From assembly GCA_905221605.1 (NCBI GenBank), contig CAJNDS010002734.1:901779-965778 (forward strand): a stretch of 64,000 bases of DNA, given 5' to 3'. The stretch is from Symbiodinium natans. Its lineage: Eukaryota; Sar; Dinophyceae; Suessiales; Symbiodiniaceae. Shown here piece by piece: positions 28,866 to 63,846 of this stretch. Position numbers and translations under genes: made by a program. The stretch's first letter is position 1, and every line of letters starts with the position of its first letter. A model generated the notes under the pieces. The model saw nothing but the letters and a program-made list of their open reading frames with translations. It was not told the DNA's origin and made no database searches.

Positions 28866-28893
28866 TAAAACCCTAAACCCTAAACCCTAAACC
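28866..28893. repeat. CCCTAAA array ahead of phosphofructokinase exon
   Basis: Four CCCTAAA units immediately before the first recognised exon; a TTTAGGG array (29006-29055) follows that exon. Confidence 0.85.
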
Positions 28894-28929
28894 CTGCTTA
28901 AAAGCCTGTTTGCTTCCACTTGTCGCCAG

Positions 28930-31900
28930 GGGCGGCTTCGATGCCGAGAAGATCTGCGACAACTTGCAGCGGCTGGGTTCCTCGTCCGCGTTGGGGCAGA
29001 TTTTCGGTTTAGGGTTTAGGGTTTGGGGTTTAGGGTTTAGGGTTTAGGGTTTGGGGGGTGTTGAAACTCCTTGCGCGGCCGCGCGTAAGAGCTTGTAGCG
29101 CAAGACGCAGCCAGGGGCTCTTGGCAACAGCCAGAGCCCTTGACTGCAATAAAGTACAACGAACTTGACCTCCCCGAAGAGTTCGTGGTCGTCCTGTCAG
29201 GTTTCGTTTTCAGGAAGAAACGTCTGCAACTATAGCTGTCATTCCAGAATTCTTGCAGGAATTACGGTCCTTTTTCTGGTGGGCGGCGATGGCACACAAT
29301 TCGCAGGACACCTGCTGTATGAGGCAGCACGAGTCCCAGCTAACAATCGGCATGCTTCTCTGCTTTGCTAATGCCCTTGCCAACTTGCCGCGCTCGTACT
29401 TTTCCCTGTGCGCAAGCTGAACCCGAACCCAGCAGACCTTAAACAACTGATTTCTAGAGCTAAAAGGAAAGCGACGACTCGACGTGAGCATCGTGGGCAT
29501 TCCCAAGTCTATCGACAACGATGCCTGGGACGCAATTGCTTGGCGGGTGTAGGGTTTAGGGGGTTTGGAGGGAAAGTTTGGGCCACCGCGGCGCAGATTT
29601 TCTGAATCATTTTTCTTGCAGCAGGGCAGAAGAAGATGCGCTGCCGGTTCGTCGGTGTAGATGTGCAAACAATCTGCCGTAGCAGCCGTAGTTGTCGGGC
29701 TCATGGGTTGTGAGGGTCAGCCGACATCGGGACGTTTGCCATTCTTGGTCCCTTCGATTCTCGCAGGAACGCAGGGTTGTTCAAGAGTTATCATGGGCCC
29801 TTTTTTTGGATGTCCCTTAATGGCTACCGCCAGTGCCGACCCCAAGAGCTGCGAATTGCCAGAGCTTGAACCGCAGAAGCCCTGAAGACCCGTGGCAGGG
29901 TGGGGCGGTGGGGCAGGGAGCAGGGGGTAGGGGGGGGGGTGGGGGAGGGGGGTGGGGTGCGGAGAGCATGGGGGGGGGGGGGGGGGGGGGCGGGGGGCAA
30001 GACAAAGACTTCACGGCCACCGACCCCAGCAGTCAGCGGATAGCTTTCATGGTCGTCTCTTCGTTTAATCTTAAGAGTATCAGGATGGGTTTTGATTATT
30101 TCAAAAGTATCAAGTCGGGGTTGAAACATAAACCTTACAGAACCACCCAGGACGTGGTCCTGTTTGACCGGACCTTCGGGTTCGAGACTGCGGTGGCAAA
30201 GGCCTGCTTAGCCAACATCTCGTGGACAACTACGAAGAGATAGAGAAGCGTTGGTGAATTTGTTTACGCATATATATATATACACACATATATATATATA
30301 CACACATAGATGTGGATATTTGTATACGCATTTGGATATTCTGTATTTATCTAGATATGACAAGGAGGACATCCGACGCGAAAGCTTACGCCCTAAACCC
30401 CAAGCCGTGGCCCTAATCCCAATTCGCCCTAAGCCACCCTAGACCCCTCAACCTTAAGCCGTAAACGCCAAACCCTAAACCCTAAACCCTAAACCCTAAA
30501 CCCTAAACCCTAAACCCTAAACCCTAAACCCCAAACCCCAAACCCCAAACCCCAAACCCCAAACCCCAAACCCCAAACCCCAAACCCTAAACCCTAAACC
30601 CTAAACCCCGACTGCTGTCTGAACCGCCAGGCATCGGAAGTGATCCGCAATGCCTTGGTGGAAGCCAGCAGTTGTGACCGAGGCTTCGGGGCTTAGGGCT
30701 GCTTCGGGTTAGGGTTTAGGGTTTAGGGTTTAGGCTTCAGGGTTCAGGGTTTTAGGTTTAGGGTGTCGGGTTTAGGGTTTAGGGTTTAGGGTTTAGGCTA
30801 AGGTTGGGGGATGGAGTGGGGCGGGGGGGGGGGGGGGGGGGGGCGATTTCAAGTTCTAGGCTTAGCGGGTCAGAGGTTGCTAAGGGCCTCCGGTTTCAGT
30901 CCTTGCGCGGGCTTTTGGCGTTCCAGGCGTCGGCATTGTGAAGCTCATGGGCCGAGACTCTGGCTTCGTCGCCATGCACGCCGCCACCGCGGCAGATGTG
31001 GTGGACCTCTGCATGATTCCCGAGGTGAACGTGAAAATGACGCTTGGGCAGGCCCTTGGGATGTTTTCGATGTTTCCCCCCCAGTGGGATTTCACCTGGG
31101 TGATATTGAGGAGTATCTTTCAGAGAGTACCCTAAACCCTAAACTTTAAACCCCAAACCCTAAACCCGAAACCCTAAACCCTAAACCGGGGCCATGCAAG
31201 GAAAGATGTCCTCGAACATGTTGATGCCACCTTGGCCAGAAAGAAGTACATGGTCATCGCCGTCGCAGAGGGCGCCGGGCAAGAGCACCTAGGACCGGGA
31301 GTAGGCCCTTTTTTTCCTTTTTTAGGGTGGGGTTCCCTTAAAACCAATAAGGGCACCCTTTTTTTTCCTAGGTTACTCCCGGGTCTAGGCACGTCTCCAC
31401 GGGGAAGAAAGACGATACGGGCCATACAATCTATGGCGACATCGGTGTGTTCCTGAAGGACACCCTCAACAAGCATTTGTCACTGTGACGCAATTCACAG
31501 CCTGGCGACCGTTTTGACCTGCAACACAGGTGCGTAGTCACGGTTACAGTAAAGTGCAGAGGCCAGCAGGGTTTTCAGAAAGGGTCCTCAGTGTGACCGA
31601 CTATTTCACCGCCTATGGTCTTGATCACTTGTTCAACTTACCAGACGGTAGCGATATAGCATTGCTTGCAACGGCTAAGTGTCTACGTGGCCCCCCAGAC
31701 AAGGAAGCCTTCTGGGGGTCGCACGTTCTACATCGATCCGTCGTACATCATCCGATCCGTTCCCATCACTCCCAACGATCACATCTACTGCGTCCGCCTG
31801 GCCAACGACGCGGTTCACACGGCCATGCGCGGCTACACCGGAGTTTGCGCAGCCTGGGCCAGCAACAGAAAACAGGTGTGCACGTGTGTCTCTGTATCCT

Positions 31901-32050
31901 GCCCACGCAGCTCACCCTAAACCCTAAGCCCTAAACCCTCTGTCTAATCTTTTCTCCTAGCCGGCCGAACGCCCCCAGGTCGGTGCCATGCACAACATCG
32001 TGTGCATGCTTCCTTCGAGGCAAGAATGGGGGAGCCTGGCAACGGTGTGA
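28930..32050 (+). CDS. ATP-type 6-phosphofructokinase, many small exons
   Basis: Catalyses fructose-6-phosphate + ATP to fructose-1,6-bisphosphate in glycolysis. Exons read: 28930-28977 ([16 protein letters not shown]), 29259 to about 29333 ([13 protein letters not shown]), about 29458-29540 ([13 protein letters not shown]), 30151 to about 30220 ([14 protein letters not shown]), 30631 to about 30674 ([14 protein letters not shown]), 30927-31024 ([19 protein letters not shown]), 31085-31121 ([11 protein letters not shown]), 31201 to about 31288 ([13 protein letters not shown]), 31389 to about 31480 ([17 protein letters not shown]), 31699-31875 ([19 protein letters not shown]), and a last exon from about 31961 or 31979 to TGA 32050. 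Gly after GGD, and IDND instead of IDGD, indicate ATP rather than pyrophosphate as donor. The set resembles plant/trypanosomatid PFKs. The N-terminal GG loop exon(s) are not found, so the 5' end is missing. Introns hold TTTAGGG/CCCTAAA arrays and one inverted-repeat element. Confidence 0.88.
30468..30608. repeat. CCCTAAA array with internal CCCCAAA block
   Basis: Eight CCCTAAA units, then about eight to nine CCCCAAA variants in a row, then three CCCTAAA units. It sits about 20 nt before the exon at 30631. Confidence 0.95.
30705..30800. repeat. TTTAGGG array after phosphofructokinase exon
   Basis: About ten TTTAGGG units with variants, beginning about 30 nt after the exon end near 30674; a poly-G run follows at 30822-30843. 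Confidence 0.9.
31289..31388 (+). mobile_element. Inverted-repeat element forming a whole intron
   Basis: CCTAGGACCGGGAGTA at the left and TACTCCCGGGTCTAGG at the right are inverted repeats. The ends coincide with the splice sites of the phosphofructokinase intron, and GCAC flanks both sides, like a short target duplication. The interior has AGGGTGGGGTTCCCTTAAAACC and AAGGGCACCC, which can also pair. Confidence 0.7.
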
Positions 32051-32114
32051 TGCCTTGTCTCGAATCGGACATACTGAAAGCCCTGAAGTCTGGAGAGTAG
32101 GAACGCTGCTGCGA

Positions 32115-32247
32115 CATGGGTGTTTACGATATTAGGGTACCTTCTTGGGGGTCCTTCTCCTATTTTGGGGTTCTATATCAGGGGTCTGTTGTTAATAAAA
32201 AGATATTTTGAACAAAAACACCGTTTGCGTAAACACGGATCAACATG
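32115..32247. mobile_element. Miniature element, GGGTTTACGAAA family (copy)
   Basis: Left end CATGGGTGTTTACGATATTA and right end GCGTAAACACGGATCAACATG. The interior AGGGTACCTTCTTGGGGGTCC and CCTATTTTGGGG match other copies at 33861, 38211 and 58211. Confidence 0.55.
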
Positions 32248-32249
32248 CA

Positions 32250-32657
32250 AAGAGTTCACACGGTATCCGGTACTGGACCATCCTGGCACAGACATTCGAG
32301 TCGTCGGGTTTATACGATGTTTAGGTTTTATGGACTTTATTGAGCTTACAGGGTTTATAGAGGTTAAACAGGTTGAAGAAGGGTGTATAGGCTTTATGGG
32401 CCTTACAGGGGTTGTGGGACTCAGGGACTTGCATGTGTGCTTTAAAGGCTCACGTGCTGCCAGGCTCATCGCAACTGGAAAGAAGAAGGTCCGACCACAT
32501 AGCAGCTCCTGGCAAGGCTGCGCCCGAAACTCAGAAGCTGCGATGCCTTTGTCGGCTCCTGAACCCTAAGACTTGTTAAGCATGGTCCTGGTAGGTATTG
32601 TTAAGTATGTATCTATTCTATGTAAGTGTATATCTACACACCTGTCCTTCAGATCTG

Positions 32658-32688
<31 letters not shown>

Positions 32689-33725
32689 ATATTCGTCTCG
32701 TTATGCAGATAGACTTTGTACATCTTTTTCCCCGCAATTTTTTTTTCGAGGTCCAGACGTGCAACATGCCAGCCGCACTGTCGGGGCTCTTCTGAGGCAG
32801 TGCACACCGCACGCCAGTTTGTATAGTGGCCGTTTATGTTTTGGTCGTCCTTGCTGACTACAGAAGCAAGTTCACAAAGTTCACGCTATGGTGGCACGTA
32901 CCAGTCTGCAGCCCAACTTTGTACAGGTTGTTGCAGCCTGTGCTTTGCTTAGGCTTAAGTACCTGAGAATGATCAACGGCTTAGTTGTGTTTGCCATGTA
33001 GGCTCCAACTCACAGCCCTGAAGTATACACAGCAGTTGGCGAAGGACTTGCCAAGCATCTGCACAGGGCGTGCCCCGCACGGTCCAAGAAGTGTAGGCAG
33101 CTCGCTCGTGGGCTGGAATCTCTTTGAGGTAGCTCGACTCCGCGACAAGGCAATTACACATAATATCAATGGCGATTATGTCAAAACAGTGAATGGTTTT
33201 GTCACTTCGCAGCGAGTAGAGGCTGCAGATTGCGCATGCTTGCAGTCCCTATTCACGCACTCATGCGCCATGCTTTGCCATCATCTCTTCCGCGATGAGT
33301 CTGTGCGAAATGGTCGCTGTGTCAACTCAAAGTTAGACAAAGCCGGAAGCCGCGTCCGCCTTTCCTAGCTGACAAGCTCACCTTCAAGCCATGCAGCAGC
33401 AAGGCGGGTTCCTTGTTGTCCCACCAGCAGCACCGCAACGCACCCGACACACCCCCTGAGCGCGCTCAGCAGTCTTGCTCGGCACTTCAGGTCAGCAGGT
33501 GTACGAACTCGCACAGCAGAGCTCCGTCAGCGCCGTTGTCGCCCGCATCCGCGCACGAAGCGCTTCTGGCTGCAAAGGATCGGCTCTAGATTCATGTTCT
33601 GCGCGTATTGCACATCTTCCACCATATTGCACCAGTTGCTTATAAGCCCTAAACCCCAAATCCTCAACCCTAAATCCCCTAAACCCTAAACCCCAAATCC
33701 TAAACCCTAAATCCCCTAAACCCTG
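32250..33725. other. No confident gene between PFK and DUF4116 gene
   Basis: Contains a TA/TG microsatellite (32655-32692) and an open frame 32985-33368 (127 residues) after an ATGTAG acceptor that shows no recognisable motif. CCCTAAA/CCCCAAA-like repeats occupy about 33645-33725. Confidence 0.35.
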
Positions 33726-33822
33726 ATGTCTGCGTCGAGGCACCGGGGCGCCCGTACCCTTCCAGTCTCAAGCGCCAGTCCAGAACTCGGAATCGGGTCG
33801 AGGACGGTCAGCCCAAAGCGAT
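33726..33822 (+). other. Candidate exon bracketed by C and G arrays
   Basis: Non-repetitive DNA lying between a CCCTAAA-type array (to 33725) and a TTTAGGG array (33822-33848), the arrangement seen around proven exons in this window. No family is recognisable from about 30 residues. Confidence 0.3.
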
Positions 33823-33860
33823 TTAGGGTTTAGGGTTTAGGGTTTAGGGATTTTAACACT

Positions 33861-33980
33861 GTGCGGGGGTTTCTCGGAAATTAGGGGTACCTTATTGGTT
33901 TTTTTGTTTGTTTTACAACAAGGGCATCCTACTATTTGGTGATCTATATTAGGGTCCCATATTTTCGTAAAGCCCCATGT
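33861..33980. mobile_element. Miniature element, GGGTTTACGAAA family (copy)
   Basis: Left GTGCGGGGGTTTCTCGGAAAT; right ATTTTCGTAAAGCCCCATGT. The interior has AGGGGTACCTTATTGG and CATCCTACTATTTGG. Confidence 0.65.
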
Positions 33981-34129
33981 CCTCATTGAGAGTTCTATCG
34001 CGAAAGCTAATCAGCGTAGCCAGGCTTGAGTTTCACGTACTTAAGCAAGAGAACCGGTCAACCCCGGGGCGAAGGGGGAGGTCCTGAAGCCATCAGGTAA
34101 ATTTCGAACCTACCGGGGAATTTCCTTTC

Positions 34130-34800
34130 AAAAAGATGGGTTGGGTCGCCCATGCGCGGCCGTTGCGTTGCAGATGGCAGTCTGTACAAGCGCGCGTTCT
34201 CTGAAGCGCGCGTGTTTCGGAGAACTCTGCAGATCTGGATCGATCACGGTCTCCATTATGTGAGCGCATGAGTATGTCGCAAAAAACAGGCAAATTCGAC
34301 AATTCGGTTTAGGCGTAGTTTATTCATAAGAACACATACAGTAACAGGGTTACACGAGGATCTTGAGTTCTAGATCGCGGTCTACCTGAGCGCGCGTCTT
34401 CGTACATCTTTGTATCTCGAGCGCGTGTTCTGGAGAGCTCCCTGGACCGAGATCGTAGGGTTTAGGGTTTAGGGTTTAGGGTTTAGGGTTTAGGGCATGT
34501 TGCTCCAGATATGCCCCCCTGGTACGTCTTTCTTCTCGCAAGTCGCGTGTCTTGGGTGGCTCCGGAGGTCCAGGTCGCGACCTCTGTGTAGGGTTTAGGG
34601 TTTAGGGTTTAGGGTTTAGGGCACATGTTTCCTCAACATGTTGCTTGCGCGGGCTTGAATTAGGTTTAGGGTTTAGGGTTTAGGGTTTAGGGTTCAGGGT
34701 TTAGGGTTTTGGGTTTTGGGTTTTGGGTTTAGGGTTTAGGGTACTTACAGATCGCGGTCTGTGCAGTATCCGTGCGGTCTTCGAAGGTCATCCTCGGTGG
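34130..34800. repeat. Diverged CGCGTGTTCTGGAGA repeats split by TTTAGGG
   Basis: Three to four units with GCGCGTGTT(T/C), a GGAGARCTC step and GGACCGAGATCG/GATCGCGGTCT ends lie at about 34190, 34410, 34540 and 34750, separated by TTTAGGG arrays (34455-34495, 34588-34620, 34664-34742). Confidence 0.5.
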
Positions 34801-34879
34801 ATCGAGCAAAAACACCCGGGCGTGAATCCACGCCAGCTTTCGTTCTCGTCGGCTTTGCCCTTCAGGGGCACAAATCTAT

Positions 34880-35012
34880 GTGTACGTATGTCAAAAATAT
34901 ATACACACGTACCTCGTATGTATAACAAATATGTATATGCATGTGTGCGTACAATATAATATAATATAATAACAAATGAAATAAAATAAAATATTATAAT
35001 CTATACATATCA
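34880..35012. repeat. TA/ATAAT microsatellite
   Basis: ATATACACAC, then ATAATATAATATAATA and AAATAAAATAAAATA steps; very AT-rich. Confidence 0.85.
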
Positions 35013-36582: not shown

Positions 36583-36589
36583 CCTTGGG

Positions 36590-37606: not shown

Positions 37607-37650
<44 letters not shown>

Positions 37651-39128
37651 GTATATATGTGTCAAAAAAAAATATATATATATATATATACACACATATA
37701 TCGTACTTTCTCCTGCTTTCTTTGGTTTGGAACTCACGCTCTTGCAAATTGCCGTGAGGTGATTCTCACCGCTGTCGGCCGGGCTCCTGAAGCTTTGGGC
37801 CATGTTGGGGAGTGGCGGGATGAGAAGGAGCGCATGGACAGTTCGCCGTTAGGGTTTAGGGTTTAGGGTTTAGGGTTTAGGGTTTAGGGTTTAGGGTGGT
37901 AGGGCAACAGACTAGCTGATCCACTGGATGCAACGTCAACTGACTGGTTTTGGACGACGAAACCAACAAATTCTTGGGCACATGCCCCTGCGAAGCTCTT
38001 CGCAGAATCCGTGAGCATGACGGGCACAGCTACGAGAAAGTGGAGAACACCCCAGTTCATCTCCATGAAACTTCGACGCAACGCAAATACAACTTAAGGG
38101 CCACCAGAAGCTTGCACCCATGGCGAAAAGAGCCGGCGACTTGTATTTTCCACATGCATTGCCAAGAAACTGCTCCAGAGACATGTGGTATTCCATCCTC
38201 TTTTCTCGGTATGGGGGTGTACGATACTTGTATTATAGGGGCACCTTTTTGGGGTCCTTGTTTGCGGGGGTCCTGCTATTTGGGGATCCACTTTAGGATA
38301 AGCCCCCCATATGTTCACCCGCAGCCCTGACCATGGCCTTGACAGGAGGTGGTCTTGCGGGCTGTGGCGCAAGATGGGCTGGTGCTGGAAATGGCGTCGG
38401 AAGTGCTGAAGGCACAAGAAGCATCCGACCACTTGGCGGTTCGTGGGTACTTGGTATAAGTAGGGTGGCTATGGTGATGACCTGGTTTAGGGTACTTATA
38501 ACCCCACTTGTGTAAGCACCCATGAACCTTCAAGCATGAGGGTGTGCAAGCCACAGCCGATGTTGGTCTATCTGTTCGGATTGCGCGCCCGACATGTCGT
38601 CAGGAGGACGAGGAGGTCCTTCTCGCGGCCGTGTCGCAGAACGGTCTCGCGCTGGAGTTCGCCGTGGAGAGGGCCAAAGCAGAGCCGAAGGCCAGCCTTA
38701 GCTGATGTTCCCTTCTGCAAACCCTAAACCCTAAACCCTAAACCCTTAACCCTAAACCCTTAGCTGATGTTTCCCTTTGCAGAAGTGGAACCAGTCCTGC
38801 TACGAGGTGGTGCGCGCGGCCGTTGCTCAGAATGGGCTTGCCCTGCAGTACGCGGCAGAGAGCCTCCGTGCAGATCGCGCCACGGTTCTCGCAGCCGTCT
38901 CGTGCGACGGGCTGGCGCTGAGATACGTGTCGGATGCGCTCCGAGCCGACGAGGAGACGGATCCCTAAACCCTAAACCCTAAACCCCTAAACCCTAAACC
39001 CTTTACGGTAGCCGGTCCTTGTTGCGCACGGAGACCTGACTGAGACTCTACAGACATCAACACAAACCCAGAGGCTGCTGGATTGGTTGATAGTGCGCGC
39101 CACTGCGGCCTGCGGGAACATAAGCCAG

Positions 39129-39171
<43 letters not shown>

Positions 39172-42100
39172 TCTTGTTCAAGGCCCCCCCCCCTCCCCCC
39201 CCCCGCTTGTTTCAAGGGGGGGGGGGGCCCTCCCGCCCCGGTCAATTGAAGCCTCCCCCCCCCCCCCTCCCCCCTTTTATCAATTTTAATAAGATTAAGA
39301 TTTCGATTTACTTTAATAGAAATTAACAAATACAAAACGTGGATTTTTTTTTAATAGGGAGCAACGGTTTCCAGCTTCTATTAGTGGCATTTCTATTTCT
39401 TTTAATAAAAGTATTCTTAATAGGGTTTCACTTGATTTTAATTCAAGTTCCAATTGGACTTCTTTTGATTCTAATCGGGTTTTTGCTACTTTTGAAAGAT
39501 TTCTAATAATATGAATGAGGTTTTTATCCCTTCTAATAAGATTTGTATTGCGTTTAACGGGATTCGTATTAAAATAATAGAAATCCTTGTCGAATTAAGT
39601 TCAACTCCTATTACAATTGCTTGAACTGCTATTGAAATTAGTAGAAGTCCGATTAGAAAAAACAATTCCAACCCCATGAAAATTGAATTGAAATGCTACG
39701 AAAAAAGAAGGCAAATAGAAATCTTGTTACATTAATAGAAATCCTCTTGAAATTAGAAGGATTCCGAATAAAAACAATAGGAATCCTACCAAAAATGGCA
39801 GAGGAAATGTGGAATTGAGCATGGGGGGGGGGGGGGGGGGAAGGGGGGGGGAGGGGGGTTTGTGGGGGGGGGGGGGGGGGAGGGGGGGGGTTACCTTGAA
39901 TATCCGCGGGCCTCTTTTTTACGCACTCTCGATTGATTTTGGTTTAGGGTTTAGGGTTTAGGGTTTATAAGGTTTAGGGTTTAGGGTTTAGGGTTTAGGG
40001 TTGGAAGATACTGGCAGGAGGTGGTCTTAGCGGCCGTGCAGCAGTGCGGAAGGGCCTTGCGCTTCGCGCGGGACGCGTGCAAGGCCCTCAAGCGCTTGCC
40101 AGGGCTTTGCATGACTTATAAGTGGTTCTCCACATTCAGGGGTAAGGAGGGACCCCTGGAAGAAGGGACCCTTAATCTTATGCTTTTACATGACCCCCAT
40201 ATATGTACCTTATATAGTCCCTACATGCCTAAGTAGCCCCTAAATGAAAGAACCCCTAGACCTAACCCCTAAGGTCCCTTGTAAGGGTCCCTCCTTCAGT
40301 CCCCTCCCTCAAGTAAGATGCGATGCGAGGGCTCCAGGGCAGCTTCCCCAAACCACCCTTTAGGGTTTAGGGTTTAGGGTTTAGGGGTTGATGATCCGTG
40401 ACATCCAGGCCCAGGCTGCGGTGGTGGCGGAAGCCGTGCGGAAGGAGGGAGCGCCAGGGGCTTAGAACGTCCATGGGAAGCTGCGCACCCATCTTGCTAT
40501 GTCCTACAAGTAGATGCAAAATGCAGGGTGTTTTTGTTCATTCTGACTGATCGAATTTCACGTATTAGACTGATGTTCATTCGGCCCCGTGCTTCTCCTT
40601 TGTCCAGGGCCTTGCGGCACGCCGCCCTGGGCTGCAGGGCAGATGCGGGCATTATGGCGCTTGCTGTGGCGCAGGCGGGCTTGGGGCTTGGGGTTTTGTA
40701 GTGTTATAGGGTTCTTGGGTGTATTGGATTCACACGGCTTTTGGTGTTTTAGGGGGGGTTTGAAATTGTGGGGTTTATGTGCTCTCAGCAACAGCACCAG
40801 TTCCACTCGAATTATCATGCCCGGGGGCTGGTTCCCTAAACCCTAGTTATAATTGCATTACGTACACATACCAAACAAGTTCTATATGTATTGTGTCTAG
40901 TATATGAAAAATGTACGTGTGCATATATAGATGGTCTTTAAAGGTATACACGCTCTTTAGCATATGAGAGGCCTAAACCCCCACACCCTGCAAGACCCCC
41001 AATGCCCCCTCGCAGGATGGTCTTGTGCTCGAGTTCGTCTCCGAGGAAGGCAAGTGCCAGAAGCAGTGCCCTGGAGCGAAGGGTGGGGGTTCAGAGGGTT
41101 TACATTGGGATGTTCCCCCTTATAATTATACTAAGAGTCCTTAATAGGGATTCTATAATCCGTAGTAGGGACTGCTAGTATAAGGGGGAACATCCCCAGG
41201 TTGGTAGGGTCTACAGTTTACAGGGTTTGTAGGGGTTTGCCGGGTTTGTAGGGATTTGAGGGATTCGAGGGGTTTACAGGGTTTGGCGGGCTAAACCCTA
41301 AACCCAAAACCCTAAACTGAGGGTTTTTAGGGTTCTGCTTTCACATGGGGGGTGACATGCATGGGCTTAGGTTGCTGAAGACCTCAAGAGTCCTTCTAGA
41401 CCCCTCAGCCCTAAAAAGCCCTTGACCCCTTGAAAAAAAGCACCAGAAATCCTCTAAGCCCATACAAACTCATAAAGCCCATAAGCCCCCCAAACCGCAA
41501 CAGGGAGGCTGAAAACCCCAAATAATCCTCAACCCTGAACCCTGGAGTTTTGCTTCTACCCAAGTCTAAGGCTGCAACCATGGGCCCTTAGTATGGTCCC
41601 CGTAGACCCTAAACCCTAAACTCTAAACTCTAAACCCTAAACCCGAAACCGTTCGAAGGGATTTCCGGGAGTTCGGATCCCCTGCCAAGGCTGGTCCTGG
41701 CCGCCGTGAGGCAAAGCGGCCTCGCGCTGGAGTTCGCCGCCCCGGCGCTCCGCGCCGACCCGGAGGTACCCAGCTTAGGGTTCAGGGTTTAGGGTTTAGG
41801 GTTTAGGGTTTAGGGTTTAGGGTTTAGGGTTTAGGGTTTAGGGTTCGGCTTCCCCAGTCTTGGGTTTCTATAGGGTTTTTCTTATGGGATTACAGGGTGT
41901 TGTATAGAGTTTGATTTTTGCCTTGTGGGGTTTTTATAGGGCTTAAACAAGGGTTTACAGGGTGCTTAATATAGGTGTCTTTGAAAGTTTTTAGGGGTTC
42001 AGTTTTCTCATGCTGAAAGGTCTTGTGGTTGTTGATTGCTGTCTTGCTTCTGATTTGTCCCCCCCCACCACCCCTCCCCCCCACCCCTCCCCCTTCCTTT

Positions 42101-45100
42101 ATCTCCATGTTTGGCTGAGGTTGTCATGGCTGCGGTGGACAGCCAGGGCTTGGCGCTGCGCCACGCGGACCACGCGAGCCGGTCGGACCGAAGCCTGGCG
42201 CTTCGCGCTGCGACGCGGGACGTCCGCACGCTGGCGTACGTGGGGGAAGGCCTCACTGGAGACCGGAGCTTCGCGTTGGAAGCCGCCCCGTCGCATCTAA
42301 CCCACTCACACCATAGCTGTGGTCATCGCTTCGGGATGCTTCCGGTAGTAGAGGGGCTACTGGTGGCGCCAGTACTCAGTTGCTACAGGCTGTGAAGCAC
42401 CACGGCGCTGCTCTTCGGCACCTTCCAGCCTTTGCCGGAGACCGGGAGATCGTTCTGTCCGCCGTGCAGCAAGATGCAGCTTGCCTGATGCCCGATAGTG
42501 CCATGATAATATAGTATCGCCAGGACATGAAACGATGGGACATGAAAGGACATGGCTCTTGAAGCACAGTCCCGCCCTCCTGCAAGTTCGAGGCCACCAT
42601 GCTGGGGGTGGCTTCGGCCGCGCTGCGCAGCGACCCGAGCGTCGTTTTTGAGGCCCTGCGGTCGGACCCCTCCGCCGTGCTCTACGCTGCGGAGCCCCTG
42701 AAGCGGGATCGAGACTTCATCCTCGCCGCCCTCCAGGTGAACCCACAGTCGCTCGCATATCTGCCGGACGTTCAAGGAGACCGGCAGATGGTGCTGCAAG
42801 CCGTGTCCGGTGACGGGAGCGCGCTCCGCCACGCAACGGATGCGTTGCTCCTGGACGAGGACCTTGTGCTGGAAGCTTGCGCCCTGAACCCTGATTCCCT
42901 CTCGCACGCGCCGGCCCTCATCTTCGAAGACGACGACTTCGTGCTCAGAGCCGTGGCTCGCCAGCCTCGTGCTTTCAGCTTCGCCTCGCACGACGTGCAG
43001 TCGGACCCTGCCTTTGTGTTGGAAGCCATCGAAGTGAACCCCGCGACCTTCCAGTATTGCTGCCAGGAGTTGAGGCAGGACCCTGCCTTTCTGCTCAAGG
43101 CGGCCTGTCAGACGCCTGCAGTCTTGTCGTACGTGGGCGACGACGTCCCTGTGGATGATGACTTCCTGCTGGAAGTTGTCGCGCTGCGCCCCGAAGCTGC
43201 ATCTTGCCTGTCGGGCGGCCGCGGGAAGGACAAGGACATGGGGCATGGGGGTTTACGAAAACAAGAGAATGAAACTTAATATAGACCCCCAAATAGTAGG
43301 ATCCTTAGTCTCCTCTTGAGCTGCCCTCCTACACCCCGGCCTTACACCCGGCCACAATCCGCTCGAGGACTTTGCCCTGCGAGCCGTGCAGAAGAATGCT
43401 TCTGCCATAAGGCTCGGACACGTCGCGCATCGTCAAACCTCCGTCTGACTAAGCAGTGCCTCAACCGCAGCCGCTTGAAAGGTACTTGGGAGTCGATGAT
43501 GACTTCGCTCTGGAAGCCTTGCAGCTGTGTGGAGACGACGCTTGCCCAGCATGTCGAGAGAGAGAGAGAGAGAGTGCCTCACGGTTGCGGAGTCCAACCC
43601 TAAACCCTAAACCCTACATAAACCCTAAACCCATGGAGCATCCGGCAGGGCGTCTCGGTTCCACATCTGAGGCTTTGGCTTTTCTTGACAGCTTCCAGTC
43701 CAGCAAGCCGGCAGTTCTTGCGGCTGCGCGGGCCCTGGGCAACCTTCAACACGGGTTTAGGGTTTAGGGTTTCGGGTTTCGGGTTTAGGGTTTAGGGTTT
43801 AGGGTTTAGGGGACTGACGGTTCCTGACACATCCTGACACTGCTCTCCAGGTCCGCAGCTCTGGCACTGCCCTCGCCCACGCCTCGCAAGCGCTGCGCGC
43901 CGACCCGGAGGCACCTGGGATCCGATGAATGGGGATCTCCCAAAAATAGTTTGCCCAAAATACCCTTATCCTTCTTGGAGGAAGCACCAGAAACCAGAAA
44001 GGGTGCGACCCTCTTTTCGTAAAGCCCCTTTATTCACAGTGGCTGAGAGCTCCCTAAACCCGAAACCCTAAACCCGAAACCCTAAGCCCTAAACCCTAAA
44101 CCCTAAACCCTATCCCCTACATCAACATCCGCATGAGATCTGGTACTTGGGCTCGGAAGCCCAGGTGTGCCTGGCAGCTGTCCAATCCGATCCCATGGCC
44201 TTGGAGTTTGTGGCGGAGGTCTTCAAGGTTGGGGTTTAGGGTTCAGGGTTGAGGGTTTAGGGTTTAGGGTTTAGGGTTTAGGCTTAAGGCTGAGCGGACA
44301 AGTGGGGGGGCTCTTGAAGGTTCGTGGGCAGTGATAAGTGGGGATATAAGTAGGGCCGCTATACTTATAGCTGGTTAAAGCCTTTTCTGGGGTACTTACA
44401 AACCCTACTTCTAATTACCCATAAACCTCCAAGCTTCCCCCCAAATCGGGGCGCCCCTGTTATGGGCAGGTTCCGATATTCGGGGGTTAGTGTCGTGTGG
44501 GGTACATGAGCTCGTCCAGCTTCTCTGCGCTGCTCGTAGAGCGTCGGCCTCGGAGGGTTTCGATTTCCGAGGTGACAAGCTTTACAAGGGGCCCTAAACC
44601 CTAAATCCTCAACCCTAAGCAGTGGCCTGCACTAGAAAAGGTGCGCAGGGTTGTTAAAAAAAAAAAACCTAAGCCCTTTCTGGCTGTGAGGCAGACCGAA
44701 GCTTTGTCTTGCCAGTCGTCCAGAAGAATGGCCGCGCCTTGATCTTTGCGTCGAAGGAGACCTCCAGCTCAGTTCGTTCGTTGCGGTCCCAGACTTTCTA
44801 GGCTGTCCGAAAGTGTGTCTACCATTTGTTTTTTTGGGTGGGGGGGGGTTCGCTAGAATGAGGATCTAAGAGTATTCTGGGGTTCTGTCTGTGGGATGCC
44901 TGTTTTGGGAATTCCCTTCCAGGGTTTCCAGGGTGAGTCCTCGACTCGGAGCTTGGTTCGTCCCCTGCTTCTGCTAGCCCCCTGTTAGGGCTTCTACGGC
45001 TTCAAGGGGTGGGCTGCCTTGGCTGCAGGAGCTGAGGCATGATGAGGAGCTCGTCCTGGCGGCGCTGGCCACACACACAGGCGCAATCGTCCACGCTCCG

Positions 45101-56682: not shown

Positions 56683-56830
56683 CCAAACCCTAAACCCTGA
56701 ACCCTAAACCCCAAACCCTAAACCCTAAACCCTAAACCCTAAACCCTAAACCCTAAACCCTAAACCCTAAACCCTAAACCCTAAACCCTAAACCCTAAAC
56801 CCTAAACCCTACCACCCCAAACCCTAAACC
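56683..56830. repeat. CCCTAAA array
   Basis: About twenty CCCTAAA units with CCCTGAA and CCCCAAA variants. A TTTAGGG array (56934-56975) lies 100 bp further on; the segment between (56832-56933) is non-repeat DNA. Confidence 0.95.
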
Positions 56831-56999
56831 CAAACGCTTGAAGTCCTTGAAGTGCCAAGGCTGCCCGCCTGGCTGCATCGAAGCTTCGAGCCTGCTGCCT
56901 GAAGACGGTCGAACTGAGAGGATGTAAACTTGGGTTTAGGGTTTAGGGTTTAGGGTTTAGGGTTTAGGTTTTAGGATTCAGGGTTTTAGGGTTTAGGGT

Positions 57000-57690
57000 T
57001 TCGGATATAGGGTTTAGGGCTTGATGCATGCCTTAGCTTACTCGGAGGTGCATAGGTGCTTTGAAACCTCAATTCTAACTGTACCTCTAACATGCTTTGA
57101 GGATTCAGAGAGAATGTTTGGATTTGTTTTTGGCTTCTCCAGGTAAATTGTGCTTTTTCAAGGCAAAGTGTTTTTCCAGACAAGTACTGCTTTTGCTAGG
57201 AAAAGTATTGACCAAATACTATACGAAACAGGCCATACCCTGAACCTCCAAGTAGGCCACCCTTATACAGCAGGGTTGAGGGCTTTCGGGCTTGGGGCAG
57301 TTTTGGGTTGAATGATTTAGTGTTTGTAAGGCTGAGAAGCACAGAGTGGCCTAACAGGGACATCATCGAGCCCTGCTGTGATCATAGCCGGTCTTACTTG
57401 ACACTAGTACGGTCATGGGGGGGGGGCCCTATACCCCAATGCGCTCTTCAGGCTGCGCCGTGGTGCGCATTCCGCCATGGCAGCACCATGGCGCAGGCAC
57501 CCGTTGCCTCAAAGCTGCTAGGGGACCTAGGGTTTCGGGTTTAGGGTTTAGGGGTTAGCATCTTGGTGTGCAAGGTTTTTGAGGGGGGTCAAGGGTTTGA
57601 GGGTTCGCAGTCACACTGAGCACGAAAGTCCCAATGTTCTTCGCCGTGGCAGCTCCGAGGCACGAATTGTGAAGCGGTCGCAGTTTGGAG
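57000..57690. other. No supported gene
   Basis: Short frames only. A TTTAGGG array fragment lies at 57532-57555. The TTGTGCTTTTTCAAGG/CTTTTGCTAGG steps at 57140-57200 are mildly repetitive. Confidence 0.35.
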
Positions 57691-57697
57691 ATGAGGG

Positions 57698-57800
57698 GCC
57701 CCCCCCCCCCCCCCCCCCTCCCCCTCGATTTAAGGTATCCTGCCGCGCCCTGTTTACCTTTTTTTTCGAGAGGGAGGGGGGGGGGGGAGGGGGGGTGGGG
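57698..57800. mobile_element. Small element with poly-C and poly-G ends
   Basis: Poly-C with CCTCCCCCTCGA (57700-57727) and TCGAGAGGGAGG with poly-G (57767-57800) are inverted around a 40-bp unique centre. Same design as 39128-39895 on a small scale. Confidence 0.55.
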
Positions 57801-58063
57801 TAGTGTTATGGGAGCGTTATGGGGAAGGGATTACCTTCTACTAGTATTCCCAAAGCAATGCTTCTCACGCTGGGTAGCAACTCAGCAGTGCGGCTTAGGT
57901 GGCTTAGGACTTCGGACTTGGGAGTGAGGTGCAAGACCACACGTTCGCTCAGCAGGAAAGTCTTTGCATGCCCTAGCCCTCTACCCGCACCTTCGCATTG
58001 TAGAGTAGAGTGCATCCGACACAAAGGAAAGTTCAGTCAAAGTGGGGCTGCTGTCTGAGTCCT

Positions 58064-58138
58064 CCCTAAACCCTAAACCCTAAACCCTAAACCGTAAACC
58101 GTAAACCCTAAACCCTAGACCCTAAACCCTAAACCTGT
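58064..58138. repeat. CCCTAAA array with CCGTAAA variants
   Basis: About ten units followed by TTGCAG, an acceptor-like site, at 58137-58142. Confidence 0.9.
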
Positions 58139-58210
58139 TGCAGCGGCAGGAGACTTCGAGCCCGCAAATGCCCGTGGCTTCGTCCCCTCAGCAGACTCAG
58201 GCTGTCGGCA

Positions 58211-58312
58211 CATGGGAGTTTCCGAAATTAGGGGAACCTTATTGCAGTTCCGTGTTATGAGGGAATCGGGGGTTTAAAAAAGGGGTCCCTTTTTTTCGTA
58301 AACCCCCACATG
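58211..58312. mobile_element. Miniature element, GGGTTTACGAAA family, both ends
   Basis: Left CATGGGAGTTTCCGAAAT and right TTTCGTAAACCCCCACATG are inverted repeats. The interior has AGGGGAACCTTATTGCAG and AAAAGGGGTCCC. Confidence 0.8.
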
Positions 58313-59200
58313 TTGAAGAGTTGCCCACGATGTCTGAAGCGAGTTTTCGTCATTGTCCCGACAGGCGACGCCTTCCACCACCGATGAGGACTACCTAAGC
58401 CTAAGCCCTGAACCCAAAACCGCAGAATCTAGACAAGCCCTACGACGTATCACGCCCGGAACTTCTCCTTTGCTTCTGGACGATCTTCTCGAAGGCATGC
58501 TATGGCAAGGCGTGTGCTGAAATGAAGTGCCTTGTTTGTGCAGGATGCCGGAACTACCATCTTCAGCCCAACAGAAGAACATCAGGCAGGCTCATGCGTA
58601 ATCAGAGTGCATGGGGGTGGGGGGGGGGGGTGAAGTAGAAGCAAGTTCGATCCGGCATAGATTCAGAAGGAGACCGGGCACAAACCACAGGGAAGAAGAA
58701 TCGTCACAAGGCAGAACGAGTGGCCGTGCAGCGCGCGCACGGCGCCCCGCCTTAAAGGGAAGCCGAAGAGCGGAGCTTTGCTGGTTAAGGGTTTAGGGTT
58801 TAGGGTTTAGGGTTTAGGGTTTAGGGTTTCATCGGCATCCGGTGGTTTGGTTGTTTTCGCCCGAGTCGCTCATACCCACCTGATTCAAGCTGAAGGAAGG
58901 ATGACCCACGCAAAGAGCATTCCCAACGCATCCCCGAAAGATGATGGCAGGCAACAAATGAAGGCATGTTGTTCCTTGAGCACCACATTGGGACACATTG
59001 ATGCTCGGGGAGAGGGGTGTTTGCGAAGCTTCCAGAAGAAGAAGGCGAAGAAGAAGACGAAGAAGAAGAAGAGGACAAAAGAGTGAGCAACCATATCCCA
59101 TTTCTGAGAACCCCCAGAAGGTGCAGTACCCGAATTTTGGAAGCCCCCATCCCATCTTCTTGCCTAACCCTAAACCCTCAACCCCAAATCCTTTTTGGGA
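58313..59200. other. No confident exon; arrays and GAA-rich tract
   Basis: TTTAGGG array 58787-58828; GAAGAAGAAG-rich tract 59030-59080 on +. Upstream (transit-peptide) exons of the acyl-CoA dehydrogenase probably lie here but were not recognised. A CCCTAAA array (59163-59190) precedes its first clear exon. Confidence 0.4.
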
Positions 59201-59201
59201 G

Positions 59202-62200
59202 GCTCTGCGCGAGATGGTCAGGTCCTTCGCCGAGGCGGAGGTGGAACCGCAGGCGCTGGGCCTTGTGAAGGTTTCATTGGGATCTAGGGTTTAGGGTTTA
59301 GGGTTTCGGGTTTAGGGTTCAGGGTTCAGGGTTAGGGGGGCTCTCTGACATTACGGTCTCTTGTTTTGGGGGTTCCCGTGCACTAAATTGCGGAGTCCTG
59401 CAAGAAGGGTAACCAAAGAGGGACGGTAATTCAGAGAAGGGCCCACATGCAGCTGGCGGTGGATTGATGTTGTGACATGTTCAGGCCATCGACTTCAATC
59501 GCGAAGAGAAGATGAATCTGCAGCTCAGATTCACCAGTAGAGTGCCGGGGCATGATTGAACGTGGCATCAGCCAGGACGCTTTCAATCCTAAATCCCTTT
59601 AAGCCTAAACAAACAGTAAACCCTTCATGGGCATACTCTGAAGAGTCTTATTAGTAGTAATTTTTATTCACAAAGAATAGTGCTTGCAGAAATTATAATC
59701 ATGCTAGCAATCCCAGCAGTCGGAGCACAAAAAAAGACTTCTACCACCCCCACTTCACCACCACCTCTACCACGAGCAACTACCCACCATCACTACTACC
59801 CACTGCCGCTACTACCCACCACCACCAGCACCAGCACCATGGCCACTGCCACACACCACACACCACCTCCACTACCACCATTACCACCACTGCCGCTACT
59901 CCTACCATCCCCGCCACCATAACCACCACTACCATTGTTAACCTTAAACCCTAAACCCGAAACCCTAAACCCGAAACCCCAAACCCTAAACCCTAAACCC
60001 TAAACCCCAAACCCCAAACCCTAAACCCTAAACCCTAAACCCTAAACCCTAAACCCTACCCTACGACCGAACCAGCAAAGACCCCAGGCCCCTGTTCCGA
60101 AAGCTGGGGGAGCTCGGCCTCCTTGGCGTCACGGTGCCCGAGGCGGCCCGAGGGTGCTGCCTTTGCCCTCTGAGGGGTTTAGGGTTTAGGGTTGAGGGTT
60201 CAGGGTTTAGGGTTCAGGGTTTCGGTTTTAGGGTTTGGGGTTTAGGGTTTAGGGTTTAGGGCTTAGGGCTTAGGGTTTAGGTTCTATCTTCCATAGTGGT
60301 TGGTTGAGGAAAAGATTTCTTAAAAGACGTGGGTGTTCCTCAAAAAGCTGCTGTATAGTGAGGACCCCTGCGTGATAGCTCATGATCTAAGGGGGGTATA
60401 TTGTGGCAAAGCTTAGATCACCTCCACCCCTTCCCCATGATCCCCTCCCCCCAGCACCCCGTCCACGCCCAGGAATACGGTGGAAGCGGCATGGACGCCA
60501 CGGCCGCCGTGATTGTCCACGAGGCGACGCGACTAGCAAGGCAGCAGGAGTTCCAGAGGCACTGCTCAGGTTTAGGGTTTAGGGTTCAGGGCTTCTGGCA
60601 AATCAGCTTCTGAAGACACACATGTGGGGATTCTCCCCCTTGCCCCTGGTAGGCAATGCCCCGCCCTCAGTTGTCCTCAGTTGAGCGGCTCCTATTCCAG
60701 GAGCTGGCTGCAGTGGATCCTGCCTTCTGCCTGGCTTACCTGGTGGGGCCTCTCTGTTTGTCTCTGTTTGTGGTCTCAGCATTGAAGCTCTCAACACATT
60801 CCCTAAGGTCGAAGCCGGCATGATAAGAATTGAGTAAGCGTACAGACAGGGAGCATGGGATTGCGGGAGTGTTAGACTTGAAAGTGGCTACGCGACACTT
60901 GAAATGCAGTTCTTAGCATGCCAGGCCCACAGCATGCTCTTCGTCAACAACCTTGCGCAGAACGGGAACGAGGCACCCGTCATCATCAGAATCCTTCCTC
61001 TATGGAATCCCAGTAGGTTACGAAGATGCACGGAGTCGAGCCTCTGGGGGCTCTTGCTCGGTGTATCCCATTCTTGGGGCACTGATGAGAGCATGTACCG
61101 AGACAGCTCCGACTGAGGCCCAGAAGAGGCAATGGTTGCCCTCTGCCGTGGACGGCTCGAAGGTTTGCGGCATGCCCGCTGCTTGGGAGGCTCTTCGGGT
61201 CTCATGAGCCTGCAGTGGCTGCTACTGTAAGGTTCTAAACCCTAAACCCTAAACCCTAAACCGTGGAATGTGCACGTAGGGTGCAGGAAGTTGTAGGCCC
61301 ATGCTTTCATGCTGCACGGCTGAGATGTGTAAGGTGCATGTCGGAGCCAGCTGCTCAGCCCTAAGACTCGCTTAGTCCAGCATGTGAAGCCGCGCCAACA
61401 GAGATGAGCTTGCCTGGCACGTCTGACCCTATATATATATATATAATATAGACTACATTGAAGATTATAATGAATTAAACATATAGGTAGTGTATATATA
61501 TATATATATATGTCAGATAGAGAATATAATTCTAAAATCTGAGTCTTTTGATGAGGTTGGCACCGATGTGCTGGGGATGAAGACGACCGCCGTGCGAGAG
61601 GGAGATGAGTGCCCTCCTCGGGTGAAAGTCTGCGCCATTTCCCTCGGCATCTCTTGACTGCTTTTTTTCTGTGCGAACTTAAACCCTAAACCCTAAACCC
61701 TAAACCCTAAACCCTAAACCCTAAACCCTAAACCCTAAACCCTAGATTTCAATTACCATAAACAAGGAAGCCACATCACGACCGCAGATCCGCATGATGG
61801 TAGGATATTCATGTGTCCTACTGAGTTTTTGTTCCACATAGCCTCTGTCTGCAGGTACGTCATCAATGGGGCCAAGATGTGGATTACAAACGGCACGCTG
61901 GATGGCAAGGATACCGGGGACGCGTATCTTGCCGGATCCTGAATCTGTGGAGATCCGCCCTGCACCCTAAACGGGCAAAAAACCCATGTAGGAGTGGAGC
62001 ATGGGCCGTTTGGGGTCTCTTTAGTCTCATCCTTAAGAACCCCAAAACCTGCTTTTGAACGGTAGGTTGCTACCAGAGCAACCTACAGAAAATTACGTGT
62101 TGGGTTCTTAGGGCATTCCTTATCGTTTAGCGTACCAAAAGGGGCCTAGAATTTGGATCGACAGAGCTGCCCAGGTCTATGCGCGCACGGGGAGTACCAG

Positions 62201-63846
62201 CAGGGACATCTCGCTCTTCCTCGTTGAGAAGGGCATGAAGGGCTTTTCCTTGGGCCAGAAGATTCAGGCCAGATTCCTGCATTGTTGGAAAGGGTTTTGG
62301 GTTTGGGGGTTTAAAGTTAGGGTTCAGGGACGATAGAAATTCATCTTGAAAAGGGTTTTGGGTTTTGGGTTTAAAGTTAGGGTTCAGGGCCGATAGAAAT
62401 TCTTAACACCGCTGATCGAGGCCGTTGCGCTTAGAGGGCTTGCCTCACGTCTACGTGGACCTCGCAGGTGCCCTAAACCCTAAACCCTAAACCCTAAACC
62501 CTAAACCCTAAACCCTAAACCCTAAACCCGGCAGGATAAGTGCGGCATGCGGGCGTCCATGACGGCCGAGTTGGTCTTCCAGGTGCCGAGTTCCGAAAAA
62601 CGACCTGCTTTGCCGAAATTGAGTTGCTGTGACATGAAAGGTCTTGCCTTCATATGCAGGCAAACCCCTAAACCCTAAACCCTAAACCCTAAACCCTAAA
62701 CCCTAAACCCTAAACCCTAAACCCTAAACCCTAAACCCTGAACCCTGAACCCTGAACCCTGAACCCTGAACCCTGAACCCTAAACCCTAAACCCTAAACC
62801 CTATCATCATTTTGGATTTTGGGCAGTGGGAGAGAGTGGCTGCAGCTGCACGTGGTCGGGAACATGAGGACTGCCGCGTTCCGGCATCCAACCTCGTCGG
62901 CGAGGAAGGCCGAGCTATCAGATCAGCTTCATCCCCCTAAACCCTAAACCCAAACCCTAAACCCTAAACCCTTCAGGCAAATTTGCAGCATTGTTTTGGA
63001 GCTTTCGCCTCTTGTGTCCGGTTGCCTTCGAGTCGTGCGACATGTGTGGGCTGTATTTGCAGCGCAGGCAAAGCCGCGCTGTGTATGATGAGAAACCTGG
63101 AGATCGAGAGAGAGCCGAACTCAGGGTTTGGGAGCAGCTTAGTAGTAGCATTAGTTACTGTTTGTTATTATTATGACTATTAGTATTCTTATCATTATTA
63201 TTATTGTGTATTGGTGCTTATTGTGTATGATCAGTTGTGGTTCCGGTGACTATGAGCAGAATTTGCAATCAATCCCTCAGAGTGAGCGCGCGGGGGCGTC
63301 TGAAAGCTTACAGCAGCCACTTCGTAACCCGCCAAATCTACCTTGCAGGGTGGTTGTCGCACGAGGCTTTGTGCTGTGGTAAGGGGGTTGATGTGCTTTG
63401 GGTCTACCGTGCCACCCTAAACCCTAGCCCTAAACCCTAAACCTGAAACCCTAAACCCTCAACCCTAAACCCTAAACCCTAAACCCACTCAGGTCGCGCT
63501 TGCATCGATGAGCCTCGGCATTGCCAGGAGGTGTATAGAAGAGATGAACAGGCGCCTGCTGGGTGGTCGTTGAAACGTGTTTAGGGTTTAGGGTTTAGGG
63601 TTTAGGGTGTGGGGTTTTAGGGCTGCTGGAGTCAGACCGCCGAGTCTTCCTGTCCGAGCTGAAGAGACAGTACGTCCTGATTCTACAGCAAACCCATGAC
63701 GGCGACTTGATGGGACCCTAACCCCTAAAAACCCTAAACCTCTGGACCCTAAACCCTAAACCCTAAACCCTAAACCCTAAACCCTAAACCCTAAACCCCT
63801 CAAGTTTGCACCCCACGAGCCAGGTACGCCAAAGATCGGAAGGCCA
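59202..63846 (+). CDS. Isovaleryl-CoA dehydrogenase, micro-exon gene, 3' cut
   Basis: FAD enzyme of mitochondrial leucine breakdown (isovaleryl-CoA to 3-methylcrotonyl-CoA). Exons: 59202-59270, 59485 to about 59527 (DFNREEKMNLQL), 60088 to about 60143 (LFRKLGELGLLGVTVPE), 60473-60525 (EYGGSGMDATAAVIVHEA), 60701-60742 (DPAFCLAYL), 60925-60975 (AHSMLFVNNLAQNGNEA), 61118 to about 61173, 61556 to about 61602 (GTDVLGMKTTAV), 61855-61931 (YVINGAKMWITNGTLDGKD), 62175-62267 (VYARTG; DISLFLVEKG), 62535-62582 (DKCGMRASMTAELVFQ), 62869-62910 (DCRVPASNLVGEEG), 63067-63112 (MMRNLEIER), 63493-63552 (VALASMSLGIARRCIEEMN), 63824-63846 (YAKDRKA). Every acceptor is AG|G. The order and wording match isovaleryl-CoA dehydrogenases better than other acyl-CoA dehydrogenases. 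The exon with the CMSEPGAG-type FAD/substrate motif before 61556 was not found. The catalytic Glu and C-terminus lie beyond the window. Confidence 0.9.
59740..59936. repeat. ACC-rich trinucleotide repeat
   Basis: CACCACTACC/ACCACCAGC-type runs in an acyl-CoA dehydrogenase intron, directly followed by a CCCTAAA array. Confidence 0.85.
59944..60058. repeat. CCCTAAA array before exon 3 of IVD
   Basis: About sixteen units with CCCGAAA and CCCCAAA variants, ending 30 nt before the exon at 60088. Confidence 0.95.
60178..60285. repeat. TTTAGGG array after exon 3 of IVD
   Basis: About fourteen units with TTCAGGG and CTTAGGG variants, starting 35 nt after the exon that ends near 60143. Confidence 0.95.
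61428..61512. repeat. Two TA microsatellite blocks
   Basis: (TA)n at 61430-61450 and 61494-61512 in an intron of the acyl-CoA dehydrogenase gene. Confidence 0.9.
61679..61745. repeat. CCCTAAA array in IVD intron
   Basis: Nine to ten pure units upstream of the exon at 61855. Confidence 0.95.
62285..62405. repeat. 60-bp direct tandem duplication
   Basis: GGAAAGGGTTTTGGGTTT ... GTTAGGGTTCAGGGACGAT ... AGAAATTC is repeated once with few changes, in the intron after the exon ending at 62267. Confidence 0.9.
62667..62803. repeat. CCCTAAA array with CCCTGAA block
   Basis: About nine to ten CCCTAAA, then about six CCCTGAA, then three to four CCCTAAA units, between the exons at 62535 and 62869. Confidence 0.95.
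63415..63486. repeat. CCCTAAA array abutting IVD acceptor
   Basis: Eight to nine units with variants; the last CCC is followed by ACTCAG and the exon at 63493. Confidence 0.95.
63581..63799. repeat. TTTAGGG then CCCTAAA in one intron
   Basis: TTTAGGG units at 63581-63612 (near the donor side) and CCCTAAA units at 63742-63799 (ending 24 nt before the exon at 63824) within the same intron, in inverted orientation. Confidence 0.9.

Follow-up and report, generated by a model that had tools for sequence, protein, structure and literature searches.

Telomere-type arrays of opposite strand bracket short exons in the dinoflagellate Symbiodinium natans

Why do short telomere-type arrays lie close to the exons of a dinoflagellate, and why does their strand depend on the side of the exon? 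The question is raised by a 64,000-nt stretch of Symbiodinium natans DNA (assembly GCA_905221605.1, contig CAJNDS010002734.1, positions 901,779 to 965,778; hereafter the window), which carries a phosphofructokinase (PFK), an isovaleryl-CoA dehydrogenase (IVD) and a DUF4116 gene. An earlier note on this DNA proposed a strand rule, with CCCTAAA arrays before exons and TTTAGGG arrays after them. We call TTTAGGG arrays G and CCCTAAA arrays C, both read on the sense strand of the gene. The window holds 70 G and 78 C exact runs of at least 11 nt, and the arrays listed in the earlier note are present at their positions. They are tandem telomere-type repeats inside the chromosome, that is, interstitial telomeric sequences (ITSs); the telomere repeat of this dinoflagellate lineage is TTTAGGG, according to PMC11453091. 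We find that the strand rule is supported and reaches past the window. The pattern is real, quantitative and wider than first claimed. Its unit is C-exon-G rather than G-intron-C, and this exon-centred pairing is the new point.

The exons of PFK and IVD are defined by protein homology, through spliced alignment, and not by RNA of this strain. The visible exon pieces of each gene were joined and used as queries. The best PFK match is P0001, by its name an MMETSP transcript product (84% identity), and the named best PFK relatives include Durusdinium, Effrenium and Polarella, all dinoflagellates. IVD is best matched by P0121 (85% identity over 90% of the query). The internal IVD exons in the window are identical with P0133, a symbB model that we take to be Breviolum minutum, and with P0132 (Polarella); only the first and the last exon differ. 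The aligner restricts donors to GT, GC or GA and acceptors to AG, which fixes these intron ends in advance, and exon edges may be off by a few bases where short repeats lie on the boundary. The genes are as follows.

28930 to 32789, plus strand: phosphofructokinase gene, 12 exons of 39-145 nt, aligned to P0001
58541 to 63842, plus strand: isovaleryl-CoA dehydrogenase gene, exons 1-17 of 23 aligned, the remainder in locus L024

In total there are 35 exons of 19-145 nt (12 of PFK and 23 of IVD, with the L024 continuation included) and 33 introns. The introns start with GC (22), GT (6) or GA (5). G directly follows the acceptor in all 33 cases, and this base is not imposed by the aligner. The start of the first recovered PFK exon was set by hand to the AG at 28929. 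For the N-terminal exons, no usable alignment was obtained upstream to 14 kb; the gene may be truncated, or these exons may lie farther off or have been missed.

How are the arrays placed within the introns? With runs of at least 12 nt counted in the 33 introns, the donor half contains all 13 G arrays, and the acceptor half 13 of the 18 C arrays (for array type against intron half, Fisher p = 4e-5). No array overlaps an exon. Eight of the 13 G arrays begin 26-45 nt past the donor, where 2.0 are expected (p = 5e-5), which places sense-strand G-runs near the 5' splice site, as in splice-site G-quadruplex motifs. C arrays end at most 45 nt before the acceptor in 9 of 18 cases (4.0 expected, p = 0.007). 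The donor crowding stays when G arrays are limited to the stretch of intron in which any of them occurs (8 vs 2.7, p = 2e-4).

Within the window, the earlier note had counted seven G arrays, all just downstream of an exon. We count ten in PFK and IVD, and every one is nearer to the donor. Seven begin 26-45 nt past the exon (29006, 29550, 30709, 59285, 60175, 60569, 63579), while the others stand at 85 nt (30768), 95 nt (60238) and 202 nt (58788). For C arrays, all but one of about thirteen had been placed just upstream of an exon. This is true for nine of the 15 counted here, which end 5-39 nt before the exon (28868, 30582, 31129, 31914, 59166, 59945, 62471, 63414, 63729); the remaining six, including 62935-62972, end 65-129 nt before the next exon.

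28868 to 28895, plus strand: CCCTAAA array, ends 34 nt before PFK exon 28930-28976
28930 to 28976, plus strand: PFK exon bracketed by C and G, first recovered, from the spliced alignment to P0001
29006 to 29052, plus strand: TTTAGGG array, starts 29 nt after donor
29550 to 29561, plus strand: short TTTAGGG run, starts 30 nt after donor
30470 to 30608, plus strand: two CCCTAAA arrays, the nearer one ends 22 nt before PFK exon 30631-30682
30631 to 30682, plus strand: PFK exon bracketed by C and G, predicted in the loop of a hairpin formed by both arrays
30709 to 30797, plus strand: TTTAGGG arrays, the first starts 26 nt after donor
31129 to 31187, plus strand: CCCTAAA array, ends 13 nt before acceptor
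31914 to 31939, plus strand: CCCTAAA array, ends 39 nt before acceptor
59166 to 59178, plus strand: CCCTAAA run, ends 23 nt before exon 59202-59252
59285 to 59319, plus strand: TTTAGGG array, starts 32 nt after exon 59202-59252
59945 to 60058, plus strand: CCCTAAA array, ends 29 nt before exon 60088-60142
60175 to 60281, plus strand: TTTAGGG arrays, the first starts 32 nt after exon 60088-60142
60569 to 60586, plus strand: TTTAGGG array, starts 45 nt after exon 60473-60523
62471 to 62529, plus strand: CCCTAAA array, ends 5 nt before exon 62535-62582
62935 to 62972, plus strand: CCCTAAA array, exception, starts 26 nt after exon 62869-62908
63414 to 63486, plus strand: CCCTAAA array, ends 6 nt before exon 63493-63551
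63579 to 63608, plus strand: TTTAGGG array, starts 27 nt after exon 63493-63551
63729 to 63798, plus strand: CCCTAAA array, ends 25 nt before exon 63824-63842

Are the two array types joined across the exon or across the intron? Over 43 exons, a C array upstream is accompanied by a G array downstream in 10 of 14 cases, against 2 of 29 exons that have no C array upstream (p = 2.7e-5). In PFK and IVD alone the figures are 6/10 and 2/25 (p = 0.003), and the coupling across the exon is stable for array cut-offs of 11-21 nt. Within the 33 introns, a G array at the donor and a C array at the acceptor show no positive coupling (both in 1 intron, G alone in 7, C alone in 8, neither in 17; p = 0.39). 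The bracketed short exons measure 46-90 nt in the cases seen.

Does the rule follow the gene or the chromosome strand? Locus L019 carries a minus-strand gene with relatives in Symbiodinium sp. KB8 (P0243), S. natans (P0245) and S. necroappetens (P0247), and also P0241 and P0242. Alignments to these relatives give 8 counted exons, of which 6963-7029 comes from P0242 only. Excluded are the alignments at 99-128 (no acceptor), 2889-2909 (tiny; it would have G after only), 5223-5245, 5437-5470, 6056-6096 and 9151-9177. Within 60 nt, four of the 8 exons have C before and G after, one shows the opposite order (G before, C after), a further one is followed by a C array and two are bare, so the gene mostly obeys the C-exon-G rule. 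Since the exon has its C array on the left and its G array on the right whichever chromosome strand the gene is on, a chromosome-strand bias cannot produce the rule.

How far does the pattern spread? The sample comprises 215,362 bases (15 loci, L024 and the window) with 304 arrays; among the loci, L010 was placed at known matches of the two-unit 14-base word and L009 where none were listed. At a spacing of 75-135 bp there are 47 C>G pairs, where shifted arrays give 11.0 ± 3.0 (at most 21 among 1000), and 13 G>C pairs, where 11.2 are expected. When the window, L024 and L010 are left out, the remaining 14 loci give 32 C>G pairs (9.0 expected, maximum 21) and 11 G>C pairs (9.0 expected); the omission of L010 makes no difference to the outcome. 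Pairs of the same type amount to 17 for C>C (10.5 expected) and 17 for G>G (12.9 expected) in the sample. The excess over jittered arrays is about 35 C>G, about 11 C>C plus G>G and about 1 G>C. The DNA between the arrays was rated with a codon score trained without the 15 loci. In these loci the inserts that score as coding (>4) are 19/39 for C>G, 5/20 for G>G, 2/16 for C>C and 0/13 for G>C (C>G vs G>C, p = 4e-5). The density of the word is 4.76 per kb in the sample, 4.71 in the genome, 5.50 in the 15 loci and 3.11 in the window; 4 of the 15 loci are array-free.

The genome assembly (759,417,921 bases, 2543 contigs) contains the two-unit 14-base word 1,788,098 times in the forward and 1,787,600 times in the reverse direction, or 3.58 million exact 14-mers in 759 Mb, and its reversed-letter control 257 and 280 times. 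From these counts, pure telomere-type repeat makes up at least 25 Mb of the genome. At 80-110 bases, the order C...G occurs 172,562 times and the order G...C 97,350 times (reversed-letter controls 8 and 9). Here word pairs are counted, not arrays, with array edges blurred, and the 1.77-fold contrast is diluted because the N stretch takes in the array interior. The same words applied to the sample give 56 (C...G) and 24 (G...C). At N{200,230}, the C...G order, the only one counted, occurs 647,222 times. Of the 73 G>C pairs at most 400 bp apart in the sample, one has a gap below 20 bp, so the arrays do not have the head-to-head arrangement of telomere fusions; some directly joined G-to-C arrays occur genome-wide.

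In the region of the DUF4116 gene of the window, the following features are found.

38719 to 38760, plus strand: CCCTAAA array, between the copies of a 20-bp direct repeat (17/20 identical) that includes the acceptor tract; insertion-like footprint
38963 to 39002, plus strand: CCCTAAA array, exception, 9 nt after DUF4116 exon; edge set by eye
39941 to 40002, plus strand: TTTAGGG array, exception, 15 nt before DUF4116 exon; edge set by eye
41606 to 41845, plus strand: DUF4116 exon bracketed by C and G, gap 139; exon by reading frame only
43596 to 43811, plus strand: C/G bracket, gap 120
44063 to 44282, plus strand: DUF4116 exon bracketed by C and G, gap 119; exon by reading frame only

How did the arrays enter the introns? 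Minus their arrays, array-bearing introns have a median length of 197 nt, and array-free introns 202 nt. We infer that the arrays are insertions into pre-existing introns. A flanking duplication with 13/13 bases is seen in L019 (3769-3891), and imperfect flanking repeats occur in L010 (1480, 18 bases) and L022 (4423, 15 bases). In one test, 6 of 268 arrays have flanking duplications (0.7 expected), with 2 of the 6 in a satellite block at 21 kb of the window. After masking, which keeps 54 of 264 arrays, they are found at 2 of 54 (0.35 expected). As this excess among clean arrays is small, the evidence for insertion is no more than suggestive, and a target-site duplication at most arrays is not supported. 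According to PMC7215372, mammalian interstitial arrays arise from break repair and sometimes duplicate their target, human short arrays are absent from coding exons, and the intron share of mammalian ITSs is compatible with random insertion, an effect on splicing being left open. The arrays described here resemble them as short intrachromosomal telomere-type arrays. They differ in their far greater abundance and in their strongly polar association with exons.

The two arrays of a bracket match weakly in size by span (rho 0.30, p = 0.03). They have no common variants and no common purity (rho 0.05), and this apparent independence speaks against an origin in one event. A bracket formed as one inverted duplication is rejected by the missing common variants, a simultaneous origin of its arrays by purity, and a bracket inserted as one unit by the lack of a significant outer duplication or inverted flank. 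An 'inner direct' repeat signal of the brackets (P = 0.003) is an artefact of overlapping windows in short inserts. We note separately that in the 15 loci, L024 and the window the C arrays of brackets are purer toward the exon (0.68 vs 0.56, p = 0.004, 38 arrays), while the G arrays have no purity gradient (42 arrays).

What keeps the polarity? We tentatively suggest that these are interstitial telomeric arrays in introns, retained by splicing with the G-strand mainly pointing away from the exon. Such arrays would accumulate in introns, in a dinoflagellate whose exons are very short, and pre-mRNA splicing would shape which of them are retained. UUUAGGG at 26-45 nt past the donor could provide G-triplets or form an RNA quadruplex, a situation known from many 5' splice sites of animals. 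CCCUAAA is C-rich and contains no AG, properties that fit a place just before the acceptor. Where both arrays surround one short exon, they can fold into a strong hairpin whose loop contains this exon together with its two splice sites, and this could help to define the exon. For 30560-30745 the predicted fold has -97.3 kcal/mol, against -62.6 ± 4.5 kcal/mol for shuffles (z -7.7; one bracket folded). Complementary repeats on either side of an exon are also known from inverted Alu pairs. These pairs promote exon skipping or circular RNA, and we know of no fixed orientation of inverted Alu repeats relative to the exon. Animal G-quadruplex motifs are most enriched after 5' splice sites, on the non-template strand and in short introns, as described in PMC9065059. 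The G arrays share with them a G-rich non-template motif past the 5' splice site, but here the motifs are telomeric arrays of a dinoflagellate, with C arrays before the acceptor of the same exon in addition.

Several observations weigh against retention by splicing. The C array 62935-62972 begins 26 nt after a donor. Both exceptions that the earlier note listed in the DUF4116 gene are real: at 38963 a C array follows a donor by 9 nt, and at 40002 a G array precedes an acceptor by 15 nt. Exons 1281-1328 and 1723-1769 are the exceptions in L019. Judged by exons alone, donors are followed by G only modestly more often than by C (12 vs 4 within 60 nt, p = 0.08; 12 vs 7 within 80 nt, p = 0.36). Twelve of the 33 introns are array-free and have neither a G-rich start nor a C-rich end; therefore the arrays are not required signals. 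The alternative raised in the earlier note, that G-triplets act as enhancers and C-rich arrays as a tract, is possible in itself, but no such skew is present in these 12 introns. Exact-repeat lengths within a bracket are unmatched (rho 0.12, p = 0.40), though pairing might favour matching, and the hairpin was computed for a single bracket. Finally, TTTAG|G as an acceptor scores below all 33 real acceptors in a local matrix, thus cryptic acceptors explain little and the obvious selective reason to exclude G arrays from the acceptor side is weak; a cryptic-acceptor filter as the main cause is rejected on this ground.

Could the polarity be left over from a neutral process? Arrays might insert anywhere and be lost where they disturb splicing, chiefly G arrays beside acceptors, with no positive role for those that stay. 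This would fit the C arrays in the donor half (5/18), the absence of AG, GT, GC and GA from CCCTAAA, the array-bearing introns that are longer only by about their arrays and the non-significant preference for G after donors on exons alone. We nevertheless consider it somewhat unlikely. G arrays crowd at +26 to +45 even within the stretch of intron that tolerates them, the excesses should be equal if the donor side were neutral whereas about 35 C>G and about 11 C>C plus G>G pairs are seen, the coupling across the exon is strong, and the decoy acceptors score poorly. The brackets could also be an exon-marking code, in which independent C and G arrays would be kept as complementary pairs and the RNA hairpin would present very short exons, mostly with non-canonical donors, to the spliceosome; we regard this as unlikely. 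The polarity might also be made by mutation, if exon-bearing fragments were released by breaks, tailed by telomerase at both 3' ends and re-ligated as CCCTAAA-exon-TTTAGGG. The earlier note held that telomere healing would not predict the orientation, and in this respect it was wrong: polarity and paired occurrence are the exact product of tailing both fragment ends, and the small number of arrays with insertion-like flanking duplications also agrees. Such an origin seems improbable to us, however, as neither purity nor variants are common to the two arrays of a bracket, no significant duplication is found around whole brackets (P 0.085) and adjacent head-to-head G>C arrays are not in excess in the sample.

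Two further explanations place the unit in the intron. Introner-type transposons with telomere-like terminal inverted repeats would bring the intron with its G and C ends, and yield G at the donor and C at the acceptor whichever way they insert. The G after all 33 acceptors fits this, and examples with complementary ends are described for Amoebophrya in PMC7789003. There, as here, dinoflagellate introns have complementary sequence and non-canonical splice sites, but the complementary parts in Amoebophrya are two ends of one intron, whereas those described here flank one exon and lie in two introns. Both arrays occur in only 2 of 21 array introns with no within-intron coupling, no conserved flank is visible between splice site and array, and the terminal-inverted-repeat test gives P = 0.06. 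Terminal inverted repeats of introners are rejected, and the introner explanation seems very improbable. The model of the earlier note, in which UUUAGGG near the donor pairs with CCCUAAA near the acceptor and loops the intron out, agrees with G arrays being always in the donor half and C arrays mostly in the acceptor half. It is scarcely credible and is rejected in its turn, since the partner is absent in 19 of 21 array introns, the ends of an intron pair no better with each other than with swapped ends (P 0.14-0.37), and G>C pairs at 75-135 bp match expectation.

What would the pattern mean? Extrapolation of the excess (about 36 pairs in 215 kb) would give on the order of 100,000 brackets in the genome. 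Should the arrays have a part in splicing, a repeat of selfish or repair origin would have been recruited genome-wide to define tiny exons with unusual donors, which are a puzzle of dinoflagellate genes. If they are inactive, the polarity would still record how telomeric DNA enters introns and survives in them, a point left open by work on mammalian ITSs. Among the matches listed in a search of literature titles (mostly non-subscription literature), none concerned telomeric arrays at dinoflagellate exons, and neither 'telomer' nor 'introner' occurs in the main text of a study that compares Symbiodinium genomes (PMC8045281; 0 occurrences each).

Domain searches were also made. At the array-rich loci, the only Pfam matches were ankyrin families, on the plus strand of L022, and there were none on the minus strands of L019, L021 and L014, probably because the exons are too short. 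A kinase search gave 133 matches, mostly long and single-frame, and no loci were gained from it. At G000:C1019:16657-35637, nearly identical kinase domains follow one another in tandem on one strand, many of them spaced by about 1.6 kb. The Rfam scan of the window had 0 matches.

Other repeats accompany the arrays. In L020 (6756-7746), a tandem duplication of about 465 bp is present in three copies, and its unit holds a C-insert-G bracket with a 59-bp gap. The DUF4116 intron at 38955-40025 of the window has the reverse order, with a C array at its start and a G array at its end; a poly-C tract lies near the start and a poly-G tract near the end, and its halves are complementary on a large scale. 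The satellite-like block at 20986-21937 of the window consists of 23/46/99-bp units that mix TTTAGGG with TTTAGGATTCAGGGCC, with a TTTAGGA array at its end. Directly downstream of this telomere-like satellite, a 32-bp repeat (GACAGTTTCTGAGCCTTTTTGGGCTCCTCCCG) forms a tandem array at 22020-22946, and at 16256-17097 there is a CA dinucleotide array of 842 bp.

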